DNA of 53,565 nucleotides from Polynucleobacter meluiroseus. GTDB taxonomy: Bacteria > Pseudomonadota > Gammaproteobacteria > Burkholderiales > Burkholderiaceae. A program made the translations under genes and the position numbers. The notes beneath the pieces are model-generated. The model saw only the letters and a list, made by a program, of their open reading frames with translations, searched no databases and was not told the DNA's origin. Where the stretch lies: positions 1 through 53,565 of the forward strand of contig CAMEXM010000005.1 of the NCBI GenBank assembly GCA_945947155.1. Direction: 5' to 3'. Below are positions 20,527-32,689 of this stretch, in pieces; positions within the stretch are counted from its first letter, which is position 1, and each line of letters begins with the position of its first letter.

Positions 20527-20700
20527 GAATTCCCCGCCTTAGCCGCTAGGCCCTTATCCTGAACCCTCGGGTTCAAGGTGGAGCGGCCGCCATGCTTCGG
20601 GTGCACTAAGCAGCGCAGGGAGTGAACAGCTCGAGGCTGCCACTGTACGGTTGCGAAACGCTCACGCCCACATTGCAAAGATCGCTCCGTATGCTTGCGC
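20527..20700 (-). ncRNA. ssrS: 6S RNA
   Basis: The minus strand carries CACCTTGAACCCGAGGGTTC at about 20562-20583, nearly identical to the conserved 3' stem of E. coli 6S RNA (CACCUUGAACCAAGGGUUCA). Upstream TTTGCAATGTGGGCG fits the 5' arm. The position directly after zapA is the classic location of ssrS. 6S RNA binds sigma70 RNA polymerase and lowers transcription in stationary phase by mimicking an open promoter. Ends are estimated to about 10 bases. A small open frame here, spanning 20514-20702, has no protein-like features. Confidence 0.88.
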
Positions 20701-20706
20701 ATCGGT

Positions 20707-21081
20707 TCAAAGATCTATTGGCCTTGGCGAGCCAGGCAGGGAAAGAGTTTGCAGCAATGCATCCACTTGCAACTCGAGGCCTTTGATTTCAGCTTCGAGT
20801 CGCGCTACCTCATCCGGATGGATTGCAGCGGACTGCGTTGATAACTGCGCTACAGCATCTACAGCTAGACGTTTACTTGAAATCAGATCGCCGGCAAGCT
20901 TAAGCGCGGCCATCATAGTTGCACGCTCGATGCTGCGGTTACCTCCCGTAATCGCCAGCTGAATTTGTTCGTCAACCAAAGTGCAGGCCTCGCGTAAAAG
21001 GGGCTCATGCTCGGCGGAAGTAGCCAGCGTAATTTTTTGGCCTGCGAGCGTGACCTCAATGCGTTGTTGGCTCATGATCAT
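20707..21081 (-). CDS. zapA: Cell division protein ZapA
   Basis: A 124-residue ZapA that binds FtsZ filaments and stabilises the Z ring. The N-terminal globular part has IEVTLAGQKITLAT; the middle has REACTLVDEQIQLA and ERATMMAALKLAGDLI, followed by a coiled coil from about residue 75. Two start codons are possible, ATG 21081 and ATG 21075 (MSQQRIEV); the second matches other ZapA proteins. It overlaps the upstream ZapB-like gene by about 26 bases and is followed by 6S RNA. Confidence 0.93.
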   Translation of the reverse strand: MIMSQQRIEVTLAGQKITLATSAEHEPLLREACTLVDEQIQLAITGGNRSIERATMMAALKLAGDLISSKRLAVDAVAQLSTQSAAIHPDEVARLEAEIKGLELQVDALLQTLSLPGSPRPIDL

Positions 21082-24051: not shown

Positions 24052-26004
24052 CTACATGGCATAACGTAAGCCAACAAAGACATTTGAACCTGGGGTGTTG
24101 TAGCCGTAGCTTAATTGGTAGTCTTTGTTGAGTACATTATTCCAGCGACCAAATAGGCTTACATTCTTTTCGAGTTGATAGCTAGCGTATAGGTTTAATA
24201 GTGCATAACCGCCCATATTGCCTGTATTGTCAAAATCAGTTCTACGTCCTTGTAAGGTACTTTCAACACCGGTTACTAGCTTATTGAGCTGGCGTTCAAC
24301 CCCTACATTACCAAACTGTTTTGCACGCTTTGCCAGTACATATCCCGTACTTTGATCTATTGGATTTTGCTGATCAAATGATGCCTTGAGGGCGTAATTC
24401 CAAACTCGCGCAGTCGATCCAATAGAGACTCCATTTATCTTTGCATTGGCTACGTTACCGGCACACCCGAATGCATACCCTGCAGGACAGCCGCTCGATG
24501 TGTATTGGATGAGATTGGTAATCGTATTGCTATAGGCAATAACTCTGGCGTCAAACGATTTGGTTTCATAAAAAATACCGGCCTCTGTATTCTTACTTTT
24601 TTCTGGTAGAAGGCTGGATACCCCATACCCTGGGTAATAGAGATCAAAAAAGGATGGCGCCTTGAACGCAGTTCCATGATTTACATTGACTCGCCATTCT
24701 TTTGTAAAAAAATACCCATAAGCAATACTTCCAGTACTTTGAGGTCCATAGCCGGTTATGTTGTCATTCCGAAAGCTAATGCTAGCTAAATTTGATCCGC
24801 GTTTGAGCTGGTAAGCCGCCGCTACCGAATTTGTATTTTGCTCTTGACTAATGTTTCCGGAGGTTGCGAATGCAGATTGAGTCCTTCGTTCCGCAACCAA
24901 TTGCAGCAAGTCTGAACCCAGCTTGATGTCATTCTGCCAGGTATAGATATTTTGCTTGCTATTGGCAACTGCGTTAGAGCTAGGCGCAAGAGTTTGTCCA
25001 TTATCAGCAGAGACCGCAACCTGAAGCAGGCTATTCCAAATACGCGTAACTTGATTTTTAGAATACGCAGCAAGCGTGTTCAGTGTTGTGACACGATTAC
25101 TGATGACAGCGTAGTCAGAGAAATCAGGTTTGTATGCTGTTGCAGGATATTGGTTGTTGAGTCGGCTAGTGAGAAACTGCGCGCCTATCTCTTGTCCGGG
25201 CGCCCATAGCTGACTTAGTTGTCCGGTAGCACTGTCTTTTACATACCCTGTCCTGTTGGTAGGCCAGCCTGCAGAGCAATATGCATTTGAGCGGACGGAG
25301 CTTGGCTGGCTTGGGCTACAGGGATTGTTATTGGCGACACTATTAAACCCGGTTGATAGCTCCTGACTGGCACTGAACGAATAACGCGTCTTATTTTCAC
25401 CATCAATCGAGCCATAAATGCTGCCCTCAACAATGCTGGTGCCGTAGCTTCCATAGCCCGCAGAGCCCCCCGCTTGAAATGGGCCGCTTCCCTTTTTAGT
25501 AAAAATCTGAATTACGCCACCGATGGCCTCGGAGCCGTAAATACTACTTTGCGGCCCAAAAATAATTTCAATATGGTCAATCAGAGAGAGGGGTATTGCC
25601 GCCCATGCACTTGTACCGCTTAAGCTTGATTGAGTGCGGACACCATCAATTAAGACTAAGCTTTGACCGCCGCTAGTGCCCCTTAAAAATACGCTTGCAT
25701 TTGAGCCGGCTCCACCCTGTGTCGATATCTCGACACCACGCTGCCTTTGTAGTAATTCCACTAAGCTAGTTTGACCTGCTTGCGCAATCTCCTCGGCCCC
25801 AATGTAAATGTTATCCGCTAGGACATCACTTGTCTTGGTGGGCGTTCGTGTTGCGGTGACAATGATTGGGTTTAGGGAGTCGGCCGTGTTGGATACCGAT
25901 ACCGATGGAGTTTGTGCTACAGCATGTTGGAAGGGAATGATGCTAGATAAAAGCGCTGCTAACAATGCGGATACGCACTGTTTATTACTGAACTGCTGTT
26001 TCAT
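24052..26004 (-). CDS. btuB: TonB-dependent cobalamin receptor (BtuB)
   Basis: A 650-residue outer-membrane receptor (E. coli BtuB 614). A signal peptide (residues 1-30, ending in AVAQ) is followed by a TonB box-like NPIIVTATRTP near residues 44-54. The plug domain reads RQRGVEISTQGGAGSNASVF, LVLIDGVRTQSS and GPQSSIYGSEAIGGVIQIFT. A 22-strand barrel ends in the aromatic-flanked VFVGLRYAM. The cobalamin substrate is inferred from the riboswitch in its leader and from the downstream btuFCD genes. It is the first gene of the operon. Confidence 0.93.
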   Translation of the reverse strand: MKQQFSNKQCVSALLAALLSSIIPFQHAVAQTPSVSVSNTADSLNPIIVTATRTPTKTSDVLADNIYIGAEEIAQAGQTSLVELLQRQRGVEISTQGGAGSNASVFLRGTSGGQSLVLIDGVRTQSSLSGTSAWAAIPLSLIDHIEIIFGPQSSIYGSEAIGGVIQIFTKKGSGPFQAGGSAGYGSYGTSIVEGSIYGSIDGENKTRYSFSASQELSTGFNSVANNNPCSPSQPSSVRSNAYCSAGWPTNRTGYVKDSATGQLSQLWAPGQEIGAQFLTSRLNNQYPATAYKPDFSDYAVISNRVTTLNTLAAYSKNQVTRIWNSLLQVAVSADNGQTLAPSSNAVANSKQNIYTWQNDIKLGSDLLQLVAERRTQSAFATSGNISQEQNTNSVAAAYQLKRGSNLASISFRNDNITGYGPQSTGSIAYGYFFTKEWRVNVNHGTAFKAPSFFDLYYPGYGVSSLLPEKSKNTEAGIFYETKSFDARVIAYSNTITNLIQYTSSGCPAGYAFGCAGNVANAKINGVSIGSTARVWNYALKASFDQQNPIDQSTGYVLAKRAKQFGNVGVERQLNKLVTGVESTLQGRRTDFDNTGNMGGYALLNLYASYQLEKNVSLFGRWNNVLNKDYQLSYGYNTPGSNVFVGLRYAM

Positions 26005-26169
26005 GATGAACCTTCTGCCGTCGAATCACCAAGCCAACTTCCCCGTTAGCCGAGTCGAACAGAACTTCATGGGCGCGAGTCCAGAACGTCAATATGTACG
26101 GCACATGGAATCCATGCGAACGCTTCTATCGGCGCGCGAAGGATCCCCGTCCGCAAAATTCCACCTGTT
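26005..26169 (-). promoter_or_regulatory. btuB leader between riboswitch and start codon
   Basis: This 165-base untranslated stretch holds no gene. On the minus strand it runs from just after the B12 box to the ribosome site AGAAGG in front of ATG 26004. It probably carries the switching structure. I could not resolve whether control is by terminator or by hiding the ribosome site; no T-rich terminator tail is seen, which favours translational control. Confidence 0.5.
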
Positions 26170-26335
26170 TTGGCCGGTATCCGGGCTGGCAAATTCAAGA
26201 GCTTGACCTTCCCATGCGATTGACGCGCACAGTGGCTATATCCAAGTTCTCCGTACCAAGCTACAAGGTACATTTGCTTACCGTTGCGGGGGCAGCACAC
26301 GTTTAAATAGTGTTTCCCGTTTAACTTCATTGCAA
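26170..26335 (-). promoter_or_regulatory. Cobalamin (adenosylcobalamin) riboswitch
   Basis: The minus strand shows the ordered core of a B12 riboswitch. ACGGGAAACAC (GGGAA at 26318-26314) leads into GTGCTGCCCCCGCAACGGTAA, followed by GCCACTGTGCG, GGGAAGGTCAA and the B12 box GCCAGCCCGGATACCGGCC at 26190-26172. These are the conserved joints of the class. The 165-base leader that follows up to the btuB start holds the expression platform. When B12 is plentiful, btuB and the linked btuFCD should be shut off. Outer boundaries are estimated. Confidence 0.95.
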
Positions 26336-26375
26336 CGCAATAAAGCACCATAACCCTTCAATAATACTGCATTTA

Positions 26376-26432: not shown

Positions 26433-27059
26433 ATGATAAATATGACAGTACTAGACAAACACACTGAAAAGAATCTGATTCGCTTGCAGTTGAGTCAGAA
26501 CATCGTCTTGCAGCATCTAGATCAGGCAAGTATGGCGGAGCTTGAGCGCCATTTAGTGATCTCAGACCTTAAAAAATCGGAGATTTTGTTGCACCAAGGC
26601 GATCACCAAATGGAGCAGTATTTTGTTTTGGATGGCATTTTGAAGCGGATCGTATCCAGCTCGGATGCAAAGGAAATGATCTTGCGCTTTACCATCGAAA
26701 AGGACATCGAGACCAGCTATGCCGCCTGGCGCCTTAAGAAATCAGCTCCTTACAGCATTGCTTGCGTGACCAAGGCTAGGGTTGCGCGCCTACCCATGAA
26801 AAAATGGACTGAGTTTTTGGAGAGCCATCCCCCTCTTAAAGAGAGTTTTGAGTTTGAGGTAATGCGCTTAATGAGCGAAATCATGGCCCATACCATTACC
26901 TTGCATATGCTCGATGCACCCGGCCGCGTGGAGCGTTTTGTGCGTAAGTACGAGAGCCTATTTGGGCTTTTGCCAAAAAAAGAGCTGGCAGCCTATTTGA
27001 ATTTATCGCCCGAGACCCTAAGTCGTCTAAAAACAAAGCACAACGACCTATTTGTCTAG
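26433..27059 (+). CDS. Crp/Fnr-family transcriptional regulator of the oxalate block
   Basis: A 208-residue regulator. A cyclic-nucleotide-binding-like beta roll covers about residues 15-130 (ILLHQGDHQMEQYFVLDGIL), then a dimerisation helix and a C-terminal helix-turn-helix KKELAAYLNLSPETLSRLK. The recognition helix carries E-T-L-S-R, the arrangement used by FNR to read TTGAT half-sites. The FNR iron-sulfur cysteines are absent, and so is the cAMP-binding GE...RSA motif of CRP, so the signal is unknown. The protein stops soon after the recognition helix, giving a short DNA-binding domain. It precedes oxc by 229 bases, and a matching dyad lies between them. MINMTVL may start at 26433 or 26442. 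Confidence 0.85.
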   Translation: MINMTVLDKHTEKNLIRLQLSQNIVLQHLDQASMAELERHLVISDLKKSEILLHQGDHQMEQYFVLDGILKRIVSSSDAKEMILRFTIEKDIETSYAAWRLKKSAPYSIACVTKARVARLPMKKWTEFLESHPPLKESFEFEVMRLMSEIMAHTITLHMLDAPGRVERFVRKYESLFGLLPKKELAAYLNLSPETLSRLKTKHNDLFV

Positions 27060-27125
27060 TTTTAATGGATTTGAGTTTGCTTCTAGCAGACTCTAAGCCT
27101 TGTTTTCATTGGAATTAAAGGGAAA

Positions 27126-27174
27126 TTGACGCAAGTCAATGCTGATCCACACCCCCAAGCCTAAGATGCATCCA
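27126..27174 (+). promoter_or_regulatory. Predicted class II Crp/Fnr-activated promoter of oxc-frc
   Basis: A perfect dyad TTGAC-GCAA-GTCAA lies at 27126-27139 and is an FNR-type box. A -10 element TAAGAT lies at 27162-27167, which puts the start of transcription near 27174. The dyad centre is then 41.5 bases upstream, the exact class II activator geometry. No good -35 hexamer is seen, as expected when an activator overlaps that place. The Crp/Fnr gene just upstream is the most likely activator. Confidence 0.75.
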
Positions 27175-27288
27175 CCTAACTGCAGTTTGTTCATTTCCTG
27201 GGTTTAGGTGCATTTTTAACTGGAGATACAAGACACAAGCTAAATTGCCTTGCCAACGGAGCGAAGCAATCTAACCAATACAACTTTT

Positions 27289-28998
27289 ATGACAAACGAC
27301 AATCAAAACCACGAACTCACCGACGGATTCCATCTCGTTATCGATGCCCTCAAGGCCAATGACATTGACACCATTTATGGTTTAGTGGGGATTCCCATTA
27401 CGGACTTGTGCCGCTTGGCTCAAGCGGAAGGTATGCGCTTTATTGGTTTCCGCCATGAGCAGCACGCTGGAAATGCCGCAGCCATTGCCGGTTATATGAC
27501 ACAAAAGCCTGGTATCTGCATGACGGTTTCCGCGCCTGGTTTTTTGAATGGTTTAACTGCCTTAGCCAATGCAACGGTGAACTGCTTCCCAATGATTCTG
27601 ATCAGCGGCTCAAGCGAGCGCGAGATCGTTGACTTGCAGCAGGGCGATTACGAAGAGATGGATCAGCTCAATGCAGCTAAGCCATACGCAAAAGCGGCTT
27701 ACCGTATTAATCATGCTGAAGACATTGGCATTGGTATTGCGCGCGCGATTCGTGCCGCGGTATCTGGCCGTCCAGGCGGCGTGTACTTGGACTTGCCAGC
27801 ACAACTTTTATCGCAGACTTTGTCGGTAGCCGATGCCAAGAAATCCATCTTCAAAGTAATCGACCCAGTGCCCCGTCAGATTCCAGCAGCCGATGCGGTA
27901 GCCCGTGCATTAAACGTGCTCAAGGATGCTAAACGCCCATTAATTCTGCTGGGTAAAGGCGCTGCATACGCGCAGGCTGATGCAGACATCAAAGCCCTGA
28001 TTGAAAAATCCGGCATTCCGTATTTACCAATGTCGATGGCAAAAGGGTTGTTGCCAGATGATCATCCGCAAACTGCATCCCCAGCCCGCTCATTTGTTTT
28101 GGCAGAGGCTGACACAGTCTTATTAATTGGCGCCCGCCTGAATTGGTTGCTTGCCCACGGTAAGGGCAAGACTTGGGGCAAGGAGCCTAAGAAATTTATT
28201 CAGATCGATATTCAGGCAAACGAAGTTGATAGCAACGTACAAATTGCCGCACCATTGATTGGTGATATTGGTTCATGCGTTGGTGAACTCTTGAAAGGCA
28301 TTGCTTCTGTTCCGAAGCCAAGCGCTGAATGGATTGCAGCAATCAACGAGAAAAAAGACAAGAACATGGCGAAGATGGCAGAAACACTTGCCAATGATGC
28401 TGTGCCAATGAACTTCCATAGTGCATTGCGCGTGATTCGCGATGTTGTGAAGAAAAATCCCGATATCAACCTGGTTAACGAAGGCGCTAATACGCTCGAC
28501 TATTGCCGTGCCATTGTGAATATGTACAAGCCACGTAAGCGTTTTGACTCCGGTACATGGGGCATTATGGGTATTGGCATGGGCTATTCGATTGGCGCAG
28601 CGGTTACCAGCGGTTTGCCCGTCATTGCAGTGGAGGGTGATAGCGCATTTGGTTTTAGCGGCATGGAGCTCGAGACCATTTGCCGTTACAACTTGCCAAT
28701 CACCACCGTGATTTTTAATAACAATGGCGTTTACCGCGGCACTGACGTAAACCCAACTGGCGGCGCTGATGTTGCCCCAACCGTATTCGTGAAAAACGCA
28801 CGCTATGACAAGATGATGGAAGCGTTTGGTGGAATCGGTTACAACGTCACCACCCCACAGGAATTAGAGAAGGCGTTGACTGAGGCAATAGCCGCAGGCA
28901 AGCCAGCACTAATCAATGCTGTCATTGATGAAGCGGCAGGTACCGAAAGTGGTCGTCTGACGAATCTCAACCCAGCAAGTACTGCCACCAAGAAGTAA
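27289..28998 (+). CDS. oxc: Oxalyl-CoA decarboxylase
   Basis: A 569-residue thiamine-diphosphate enzyme (Oxalobacter formigenes OXC has 568) that converts oxalyl-CoA to formyl-CoA and CO2. It begins [20 protein letters not shown]. Motifs include the catalytic-Glu region [51 protein letters not shown] and the ThDP/Mg motif [20 protein letters not shown]. Similarity to the Oxalobacter protein is strong along the full length. A TTG upstream gives a longer frame but lacks family residues. No Shine-Dalgarno sits near ATG 27289, and the leader from the predicted start site is about 115 bases. The formyl-CoA transferase gene follows after 40 bases. Confidence 0.96.
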
Positions 28999-29038: not shown

Positions 29039-30289
29039 ATGAGTAAGCCATTAGATGGAATCCGCATTATCGATTTCACCCACGTACAAGCAGGCCCTGC
29101 CTGTACCCAGTTGTTGGCATGGTATGGCGCGGACGTAATCAAAGTAGAGCGCCCTGGATCTGGCGACGTAACCCGTAGCCAGTTACGCGATATTCCGGAT
29201 GCCGATGCCTTGTATTTCACGATGCTCAACGGCAATAAGCGCTCGTTGACCTTAGATACCAAGACAGCAGAAGGCAAAGAAGTGTTGGAGAAGTTGATTA
29301 AAGTTTCTGATGTGATGGTCGAGAACTTTGGCCCTGGCGCCTTAGATCGCATGGGTTTCTCATGGGAGCGCATCACAGAACTCAACCCACGCATGATCAT
29401 GGCGTCGGTAAAGGGCTTTAGCGATGGCCACTCTTACGAAGATTTAAAAGTGTATGAGAACGTAGCCCAGTGTGCTGGCGGCGCAGCGTCCACCACCGGC
29501 TTTTGGGATGGTCCTCCAACCGTATCCGCTGCTGCTTTGGGCGATAGCAATACCGGTATGCACTTGGCAATTGGTATTTTGACTGCACTGATGCACCGTG
29601 AAAAGACTGGCCGCGGTCAAAAAGTGGCTTGCTCGATGCAAGACGCTGTCTTGAATTTATGCCGCGTGAAGTTGCGCGACCAACAGCGCCTGGATCGCAT
29701 TGGTTATTTGGAAGAGTACCCACAATACCCCCACGGCACATTCTCTGACGTAGTTCCACGCGGCGGTAATGCTGGCGGTGGTGGTCAACCAGGTTGGGTT
29801 TTAAAGTGTAAGGGATGGGAAACCGATCCCAATGCCTACATTTATTTCACGATTCAAGGCCATGCCTGGAAGCCAATTACAGAGGCTTTAGGTCGTCCAG
29901 AGTGGGCAACCGATCCAGCCTACATGACTGCTGAAGCGCGTCAAGACAAAATTTTTGACATCTTCGCAACCATTGAAGAGTGGCTCAAAGACAAGACTAA
30001 GTACGAAGCAGTGGATATCTTGCGTAAGTTCGATATTCCATGCGCACCTGTGCTTTCGATGAAAGAACTCGCCGCATCACCCGATTTGCGTGCAAGCGGT
30101 TCGATTGTGGAAGTGGATCACAAGGTACGCGGTAAGTACCTGACGATTGGTAGCCCAATCAAGTTCTCTGATTTAGAGATTGAGGTAAAGCCATCGCCCG
30201 TTTTAGGTGAGCACACAGATGAAGTATTGGCTGACCTTGGCTACGGCAAGGACGATATTGCTAAGTTACATGCGGCAAAAGCAGTGTAA
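29039..30289 (+). CDS. frc: Formyl-CoA:oxalate CoA-transferase
   Basis: A 416-residue class III CoA-transferase (Oxalobacter Frc 428) that moves CoA from formyl-CoA to oxalate, releasing formate and giving oxalyl-CoA for OXC. The catalytic Asp is at residue 169 in [10 protein letters not shown]. Other conserved parts are [13 protein letters not shown] (Gln17 region), the flexible tetraglycine loop [11 protein letters not shown] and LGEHTDEVL at the C-terminus. A perfect AAGGAG ribosome site stands 8 bases before the ATG. It forms a two-gene unit with oxc, closed by the terminator at 30315. Confidence 0.96.
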
Positions 30290-30314: not shown

Positions 30315-30341
30315 AAGGCGCTCCGAGTGAGCGCCTTTTTT
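30315..30341 (+). terminator. Strong intrinsic terminator after oxc-frc
   Basis: A perfect 9-base stem AAGGCGCTC/GAGCGCCTT with a 5-base loop CGAGT, merging into a run of six T. It separates oxc-frc from the second frc paralogue, so the latter needs its own promoter. Confidence 0.93.
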
Positions 30342-30508: not shown

Positions 30509-31756
30509 ATGGCAAAAGCACTCGAAGGAGTAAAAATCCTCGATTTCACGCACGTTCAATCGGGACCAACCTGTACTCAATTATTGGCTTGGTTCGGCGC
30601 TGATGTGATTAAAGTGGAGCGTTCTGGCGAGGGTGATGCTACCCGCGGTCAATTGCGCGACATACCCGATGCGGATAGTTTGTATTTCACCATGCTGAAC
30701 CACAATAAACGCTCGATTACAGTCAATACCAAAACCCCAGAGGGGAAAGATATTCTTGAGCGCTTAATTAAAGAGTGCGACGTCTTGGTTGAAAACTTCG
30801 CGCCGGGCGCCTTAGATCGTATGGGTTTTACATGGGAGCACATTCAGCATCTCAATCCGCGCATGATCATGGCATCGATCAAGGGCTTTGGACCAGGGCC
30901 TTATGAAGATTGCAAGGTATACGAAAACGTAGCCCAGTGTGCTGGTGGTTCAGCATCCACCACCGGTTTTGACGATGGCCCTCCAATGGTAACGGGCGCG
31001 CAAATTGGCGATAGCGGAACAGGCTTGCATTTGGCCTTGGGTATCGTGACTGCCTTGTACCAGCGTACCCATTCGGGTCGTGGTCAACGAGTGCAAGCAG
31101 CGATGCAAGACGCAGTATTAAATCTATGCCGTGTGAAGTTGCGCGACCAACAACGCCTTGATCGCAACGGTACGATGCAAGAGTATCCGCAGTTCCCCAA
31201 CGGTCATTTCGGTGAGGCAGTTCCTCGCGCTGGAAATGCCTCTGGTGGCGGACAGCCCGGCTGGATTCTGAAATGCAAAGGCTGGGAAACCGATCCTAAC
31301 TCCTACATTTATGTTGTCGTTCAGGCTGCGGTTTGGGAGGCGATTTGTAAGGTAATTGGTAAAGAGGAGTGGATTACTGACCATGACTTTTCATCGCCGA
31401 TGGCGCGCTTACCAAGACTGATGCAAATCTTTGGTGAGATCGAAAAATGGACTATGACCAAAAGCAAGTTTGAGGTAATGGACATATTGAATAAGTACGA
31501 TGTACCATGCGGCCCGATTCTGTCGATGAAAGAAATTGCCGAAGAGCCAGCACTGCGCGCTACCGGTACGATTGTTGAAGTTGATCACCCAATTCGTGGT
31601 AAGTATCTGACGGTTGGTAATCCAATTAAGTTATCCGATAGCGAAACCGACGTCACGCGCTCGCCATTGCTCGGCGAGCATACCGATGAGATCTTGCAAG
31701 AATTGGGATTCAATATCGACGATCTCATCTATTTACGCCACCGGAAAGTCATCTAA
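30509..31756 (+). CDS. Second formyl-CoA transferase paralogue (class III CoA-transferase)
   Basis: A 415-residue protein closely similar to the upstream frc along its whole length. The catalytic Asp is at residue 168 in [10 protein letters not shown], and [13 protein letters not shown] and the C-terminal LGEHTDEIL are kept. Two changes stand out: a residue is lost before the active site ([10 protein letters not shown] against [11 protein letters not shown]) and the glycine loop reads [11 protein letters not shown], with Ser replacing the first Gly of the mobile tetraglycine loop. It could be an isoenzyme, or use another acyl acceptor. It ends directly at the ATG of the formyltransferase-like gene, so the two products are expected to be made together. 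Confidence 0.88.
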
Positions 31757-32689
31757 ATGAAAGTCGCCCTGATTGGCAGTCAAGATTTTGGTAAGGCTGC
31801 GCTTGAGGCCTTTTTAGAGCGTGGCGACGAGGTGGTTGCGGTATTTTGTCCGCCCGATAATCCCAAAGCTACTAAGCCTGAGATTCTGAAAGAGGCTGCC
31901 TTAGCAAAGGGCCTTATGCCCTTGCAATTTGCCTCCCTTAAGAGCCCTGAAGCGGCGGATGCGATGCGCAACAGTGGCGCAGACATTTGTGTGATGGCGT
32001 ATGTCTTGCAATTTGTGCCGCAAGAGCTTGCCAAGATACCGCGTTTGGGCACGATTCAATACCATCCCTCGTTGCTGCCGAAGTACCGTGGCCCCAGCGC
32101 AATTAACTGGGCCATTGCTTTGGGCGAGACTAAGACAGGCCTAACCATTTTCCGACCATCGGATGGCCTCGATGAAGGTGAAGTGATTTTGCAAAAAGAG
32201 GTAGTCATTGGCGCAAACGATACCCTGGGATCGGTTTATTTTGATCACCTCTTTCCGCTTGGGGTTCAAGCGCTATTAGAGGCTGCTGATCTGGTTGCGG
32301 CGGGCAAGCACCAGGAGGCGGTGCAAGACGAGGCATTAGCGAATTACGAAGGGTGGTTCGATCAGGCAGCAGCACGCATTCATTGGTCAAGCCACATAAC
32401 GCAGATTCATAATCTGATTCGGGCCTGCAATCCGGCCCCTGGCGCTTGGACCATGGTTGGCGAACAAAAAGTGCAGATTTACGACGTCAAAAAACACATC
32501 ACAGCCACCTATGGTGTCGTCAAAGGCAAGCCAGGTCAAATCACAGCGATTGGTCCCGAATCCTTTTTCGTGGCCTGCCATGGCGGTCAGATTGAGGTAT
32601 TGAAGGCGAAAGGCTCGGCTGGCAAAGTAAGCGGCGCAGAGCATGCAAAAAGCCTTGGTTTGACGGTAGATCAATTTTTTACTGCTTAA
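31757..32689 (+). CDS. Stand-alone formyl-THF hydrolase-domain protein (FMT/ALDH1L1 N-domain family)
   Basis: A 310-residue folate-formyl enzyme. It matches methionyl-tRNA formyltransferase folds but has the motif YHPSLLPKYRG (His103) in place of the NxHxSLLP of Fmt. With GPSAINWAIALGETKTGLTI, SDGLDEGEVILQKE (Asp139) and IHNLIRACNPAPGAWT it resembles the N-terminal hydrolase domain of 10-formyl-THF dehydrogenase (ALDH1L1). No aldehyde dehydrogenase domain is attached. The domain in animals releases formate from 10-formyl-THF. Its ATG follows the TAA of the frc paralogue with no spacer. It may link folate-bound and CoA-bound formyl groups; that role is inference. Confidence 0.85.
   Translation: MKVALIGSQDFGKAALEAFLERGDEVVAVFCPPDNPKATKPEILKEAALAKGLMPLQFASLKSPEAADAMRNSGADICVMAYVLQFVPQELAKIPRLGTIQYHPSLLPKYRGPSAINWAIALGETKTGLTIFRPSDGLDEGEVILQKEVVIGANDTLGSVYFDHLFPLGVQALLEAADLVAAGKHQEAVQDEALANYEGWFDQAAARIHWSSHITQIHNLIRACNPAPGAWTMVGEQKVQIYDVKKHITATYGVVKGKPGQITAIGPESFFVACHGGQIEVLKAKGSAGKVSGAEHAKSLGLTVDQFFTA

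Follow-up and report, generated by a model that had tools for sequence, protein, structure and literature searches.

A putative pathway-specific Crp/Fnr-type activator and its predicted class II operator at the oxalate genes of Polynucleobacter and related bacteria

What switches on the oxalate operon of Polynucleobacter meluiroseus, and is the Crp/Fnr-type gene directly upstream of oxc its regulator? Oxalate is an acid commonly found in plants and fungi, and oxc-frc operons occur widely among bacteria; to our knowledge, little is known about their control beyond the acid-response system of E. coli. In the window, by which we mean the whole stretch of 53,565 nucleotides analysed here, a first-pass annotation had pointed to a perfect TTGAC-N4-GTCAA dyad whose centre precedes the predicted start of oxc by 41.5 bases, and both the dyad and a -10 box were located as described (Table 1). 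The -10 box, with the usual distance from such a box to the start, places the predicted start at 27174 and therefore the dyad centre at -41.5. The + strand between 26300 and 30520 was searched for two-box sigma-70-like sites, and none was found. The frc gene is probably carried on one transcript with oxc, and the formyltransferase-family protein, which adjoins frc under the same operator in the window and in L195, L205, L216 and L219, possibly takes part in the handling of formyl-CoA. At up to one mismatch, the dyad occurs twice in the window against 1.58 occurrences expected, which is not significant; the window alone is modest evidence, and the comparative data carry the case. A chance dyad, which this count alone would still allow, is ruled out by the comparison across loci.

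Table 1. Features of the regulator and oxalate gene region in the window
Feature	Position	Strand	Remarks
Crp/Fnr-type regulator gene, 208 aa	26433..27059	+	beta-roll domain of cNMP type, long C-helix and a short HTH that lacks the usual wing
Dyad TTGACGCAAGTCAA (TTGAC-N4-GTCAA), predicted operator of the regulator	27126..27139		zero mismatches; centre at -41.5
-10 box TAAGAT	27162..27167	+	22 bases past the dyad; predicted transcription start 27174
oxc, oxalyl-CoA decarboxylase, target gene (predicted)	27289..28998	+	ATG at 27289; NF006721 and TIGR03254 above cut-off
frc, formyl-CoA transferase	29039..30289	+	TIGR03253 above cut-off; 40 bases 3' of oxc
Terminator-like hairpin 3' of frc	30315..30337	+	consensus match only
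Second frc-type CoA transferase	30509..31756	+	without its own dyad in the window; family search and dyad scan
Formyltransferase-family gene	31757..32689	+	below the Fmt cut-off; adjoins frc in several related loci

The regulator may in fact start at 26442, because its fourth residue coincides with the first position of most aligned orthologues. PF00027 matched the protein with 32.7 bits (cut-off 27.5), which identifies a cNMP-type beta-roll sensor domain, and the Crp-type HTH profile PF13545 reached 18.1 bits (cut-off 27) with only positions 23–42 of its 70 aligned. An AlphaFold2 model (mean pLDDT 92.2) revealed a CRP fold, with GlxR and M. tuberculosis CRP as the best Foldseek matches (TM 0.81 by query length), and the chain stops shortly past the recognition helix, without wing strands. 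The best sequence match among solved structures was the cyclic nucleotide binding regulatory protein of Cytophaga hutchinsonii (PDB 3dn7, E=3e-8), whose chain also stops right past the matched recognition helix but which is only 19% identical in the fold match; we know of no function assigned to it. The regulator resembles E. coli CRP in fold, domain order, long C-helix and an LD.xGR hinge, but scores 29.4 bits against the CRP cut-off of 266 and differs at the cAMP-contact positions. These contacts, which we take to be CRP positions 71, 72, 82, 83, 127 and 128, are occupied by T94, S95, A105, P106, I150 and M151 in the register given by the sequence match to solved structures, and none of the 48 aligned orthologues has the CRP residue at 71, 72, 82, 127 or 128, or a serine at 83. 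No cysteine is conserved: the sole one, at position 111, is not kept, and 24 of the 48 orthologues have none at all. The annotated absence of the FNR cysteines and of the CRP cAMP motif thus stands, and these residues make binding of cAMP or of an Fe-S cluster unlikely. The recognition helix likewise bore out the E..SR motif read in it, as E194, S197 and R198, the residues that correspond to those of FNR, are invariant in all 48 orthologues together with T195, and L196 is nearly so. Around the pocket R72, R85, T94, P106 and I109 never vary, and S95, Y96 and Y107 hardly do, a conservation that would suit a small anionic ligand. A regulator 99.5% identical to that of the window is encoded in G176.

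Within Polynucleobacter the dyad goes together with the regulator. Of 186 genomes of the genus, 149 carry the regulator and 152 carry oxc (E<=1e-150); 145 genomes have both, 7 oxc only, 4 the regulator only and 30 neither. The four with the regulator only are G030, G031 and G032, in which it is broken or fragmentary, and G175, where the contig apparently ends soon past it. Scanning 159 loci, with some genomes reached twice, gave 126 distinct promoters after one locus in which the end of the regulator is absent (L080) was dropped and promoters identical over their first 200 bases were merged into one; loci such as L076–L079, in which the regulator copy is broken, stayed in. The dyad is exact in 124 of these 126 promoters, and the remaining two carry one mismatch, one of them being that of G034, whose oxc match spans residues 1–360 only. 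The four spacer bases take ten different sequences among the 124 exact dyads, and a TAnnnT box follows at a gap of 22 in 121, of 23 in two and of 21 in one. By comparison, none of the seven oxc genes of the genus without the regulator has the dyad at up to one mismatch in the approximately 1.3 kb read (approximately 350 bases in L070), and the same holds within 1 kb for the five oxc genes from sister genera, where the regulator is likewise absent. The link between the local Crp/Fnr protein and the dyad, which the first-pass annotation had proposed for a single locus, is thus seen as 124 exact dyads in 126 promoters against none at 12 regulator-less oxc genes.

The seven regulator-less genomes of the genus (L068–L074; 2.3–3.1 Mb) carry a more distant oxc, of 73–77% identity. 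One of them (L071) has two-mismatch matches at -388 and -120, the former being an FNR-like TTGAT-N4-ATCAA, and an ORF upstream of its oxc looks by eye like a LuxR-type HTH protein. In the sister genera, two-mismatch matches lie at -600 or further and a single one-mismatch match at -1459; one of these oxc genes (L261) also has a regulator gene upstream, which belongs to another family (Pfam GntR and FCD), and has no dyad. Among 398 genomes drawn from the family of Polynucleobacter, the regulator occurs in only one of 25 genera, while two of the five sister-genome oxc genes are 78–79% identical and the regulator-linked oxc genes of other families 69–75%, which suggests from the sequences that the oxc operon was rewired in Polynucleobacter. 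Decaying copies of the regulator, of oxc or of both were noticed in G030, G031, G033, G034 and G036, genomes of 1.7–1.9 Mb. The case of G036 speaks against control by the regulator: the latter has five stops there, yet oxc is intact and the dyad exact; the promoter may work without the regulator there, or the loss of the regulator may be recent.

Beyond the genus, an order-wide profile search found the regulator in 76 of 399 genomes and 29 of 158 genera, all at E<=6.5e-51 (limit 1e-9). A draw of 398 genomes across the phylum gave ten matches, eight in the same order and two marginal (approximately 4e-10 and 7e-10), and a search of plasmids found no relative. The order search had found 69 genomes outside the genus; from 38 of them we took 40 loci, covering 13 families, in which the regulator is 50–66% identical to that of the window. 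In the usual layout it is divergent from oxc, from a frc-formyltransferase pair, or from a different TPP enzyme followed by frc. This enzyme, found next to frc under the same operator in L184, L186, L192 and L193, is 25–27% identical to oxc, and three of the four (L184, L186 and L192) were scanned and reached no NCBIfam cut-off. The dyad with up to one mismatch was present in 34 of the 40 stretches, and within 300 bp upstream of the regulator in 31 of the 40 orthologues, compared with a mean of 0.36 and a maximum of 4 in 300 shuffles; ten further sites outside that interval lie ahead of oxc, frc or antiporter genes. The expected synteny, a dyad before oxc orthologues beside the regulator, was thus found in Polynucleobacter and in its relatives. 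Six stretches had no site (L199, L200, L212, L215, L217 and L218). Of these, L212 counts against the reading, because a frc-formyltransferase pair adjoins its regulator; the other five contain no oxc or frc within the stretch. Longer stretches of two of these five genomes (L272 and L271) do have sites, ahead of genes that looked by eye like frc-type and sucC-type ones.

The geometry of the promoter is conserved across families as well. Of 39 promoters outside the genus, 37 have a TAnnnT box on the side facing the oxalate gene, at a gap of 22 in 18 and of 23 in 19, the exceptions being L187 and L214, and just one of the 39 has a box on the opposite side at a gap of 21–23. This count left out two antiporter sites (L184:5570 and L205:4612) and used one of the two sites in each of L187 and L211. 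Five loci (L195, L196, L221, L222 and L223) have the regulator between a frc-formyltransferase pair and oxc, with a dyad for each promoter, and three (L214, L216 and L219) have it convergent, with the dyad ahead of oxc or frc; the site therefore goes with the target and not with the regulator gene. With the dyad near -41.5 of a predicted start, a fixed gap to the -10 box and, as checked in the window, no -35 hexamer, the arrangement is, judged from sequence, class II and points at the oxalate genes, in agreement with the class II promoter first proposed for oxc. Comparison across genomes thus establishes, as far as sequences go, the protein family, the site, its spacing and direction, and its linkage to the regulator.

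The combined signature (dyad, gap of 21–23 and TAnnnT) was further sought in genomes with and without the regulator. It gave 54 matches in 18 of 20 regulator-bearing genomes versus 9 in 4 of 10 regulator-less ones, and the reversed signature, as a control, gave 3 and 2, respectively; the matches in regulator-less genomes count against the reading. Sites with a -10 box lie ahead of a formate-THF ligase gene (L268:8151), of another such gene that is cut by the end of the stretch and below cut-off (L266:1018), of an operon of sucCD followed by formate dehydrogenase (L266:14785), and of a second copy of the TPP enzyme in G529 (L273:2088). Sites at oxalate/formate antiporter genes (L273:11669; L184:5570, the same as L273:15343; and L205:4612) have no -10 box at the right gap and are therefore weaker. 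Similar sites precede genes named by eye in L267, L269–L272, L274 and L275. Among L266–L275 eight proteins were family-searched (five in L266, one each in L268, L271 and L273), L035 supplied a ninth, and the other names were given by eye. The identified targets point to oxalate, formyl-CoA and formate metabolism. In the window's own genome (G000) the signature occurs once, at oxc. Fifteen of its 21 TTGAY-N4-RTCAA places, including all six exact TTGAC-N4-GTCAA ones, were opened; of the 14 examined besides oxc, 12 lie inside ORFs, and a site 93 bp before sucC (L035) was rejected as a target for want of a -10 box at the right gap.

Taken together, these results very probably describe a pathway-specific Crp/Fnr activator that has apparently not been described before, with TTGAC-N4-GTCAA as its predicted site. 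We infer that the regulator binds this site, that it activates rather than represses, and that a metabolite of the pathway controls it. In this model, a regulator dimer would bind the dyad through its FNR-like recognition helix and recruit sigma-70 RNA polymerase in class II geometry, centred at -41.5 without a -35 hexamer, which would switch on oxc and probably frc too. In relatives, the regulator would also serve frc/formyltransferase operons and probably the formate-THF ligase gene, the sucCD-formate dehydrogenase operon and oxalate/formate antiporters. The signal is proposed more tentatively: oxalate, oxalyl-CoA, formyl-CoA or formate may sit in the remodelled, non-cAMP pocket, and a ligand from the oxalate/formate pathway is a reasonable guess short of an even bet. 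With a likelihood again a little short of even, the cNMP pocket may have been rebuilt as a sensor of a C1/C2 acyl-CoA or its acid (formyl-CoA, oxalyl-CoA, oxalate or formate) that would tie together the uptake of oxalate, its decarboxylation and the oxidation of formate in Burkholderiales-type bacteria, which would make it, as far as the literature searched and our recall go, the first Crp/Fnr protein for this pathway.

Other readings of the same locus were weighed against this one. The same protein and site might belong to a DNR/heme-type sensor of gases or redox state (NO, CO or O2), so that the state of respiration switches the oxalate and formate genes. The FNR-like recognition helix, the TTGA-N6-TCAA-type site, a weak sequence match to DNR (3dkw, E=0.0035) and the lack of a conserved cysteine, with which heme is compatible, would all fit; the targets found, with part of the ORFs near sites family-searched, are nevertheless oxalate, formyl-CoA and formate genes, and the pocket is strongly conserved, as expected of a small-molecule site, so we consider such a sensor improbable. 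A repressor that is released by its ligand could occupy the same dyad, which at -41.5 overlies the -35 region. Such steric repression would not need the fixed gap (22–23 in 37 of 39 non-genus promoters; 21–23 in all 124 exact dyads of the genus), and in the window no -35 hexamer is available for activator-free transcription, which makes repression very improbable.

It is also conceivable, if barely, that another protein reads the dyad as a generic FNR/ANR/DNR site, the adjacent gene being a bystander. FNR has E..SR recognition residues, TTGA-N6-TCAA-type dyads and a class II position of -41.5, and the regulator shares the recognition residues, and its predicted site the dyad type and the position, with FNR/ANR; moreover, further cNMP-domain proteins occur in 23 of 25 genus genomes checked. 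The regulator, however, lacks the cluster cysteines, scores 19.5 bits against the NCBIfam FNR cut-off of 228, and has oxalate and formate genes as its predicted targets; the inner base pair of the half-site is T-A in FNR sites and C-G in the window dyad. None of the 12 regulator-less oxc genes has the dyad, and the window's own genome (assembly 93% complete) encodes only two cNMP-domain proteins, the regulator and a CBS-DUF294 protein in which no HTH was detected. In G067, whose genome is complete, the regulator is the sole cNMP-domain protein and the exact dyad is kept; among the 25 genomes checked, G011 likewise has the regulator as its only cNMP-domain match. A real FNR/ANR regulator, which the first-pass annotation had named as a competing explanation of oxc, was thus rejected where testable, the own genome and G067 offering no candidate protein.

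The pathway-specific activator that we favour has no counterpart that we recognised in a search of open-licence papers for a Crp/Fnr regulator of oxalate genes. In E. coli, EvgA controls yfdXWUVE, an operon that includes homologues of oxc and frc (PMC3720670); EvgA is the acid-response regulator of the EvgAS two-component system and not a Crp/Fnr protein. A point against the reading is that oxalate was not assimilated by one lineage of Polynucleobacter (PMC3308952), though its oxidation for energy might go unseen as assimilation. The conserved regulator, operator and spacing allow an oxalate/formate regulon to be provisionally defined in many uncultured relatives, and they make oxalate sensing in freshwater Polynucleobacter and many related bacteria directly testable. 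The regulator is also a compact candidate for an oxalate biosensor, and its pocket is new to a superfamily that has been studied extensively.

Some further elements were noticed alongside this analysis. Just upstream of the regulator, a cobalamin riboswitch (RF00174, 79.5 bits) lies at 26155–26367 on the - strand, before a divergent gene at 24052–26004 that was named TonB-receptor-like by eye, and a 6S RNA (RF00013, 59.7 bits) lies at 20527–20745, also on the - strand. In 7 of 47 genus genomes we found a very similar signature, TTGACTGCAGTCAA or TTGACTGCCGTCAA followed by TATGAT, which in the four loci opened (L276, L298, L299 and L300, around position 1501) precedes an AAA ATPase gene. The gene in L276 matched Pfam AAA and, weakly, IetA/TRIP13, and the signature possibly marks another target of the regulator or the site of another one.
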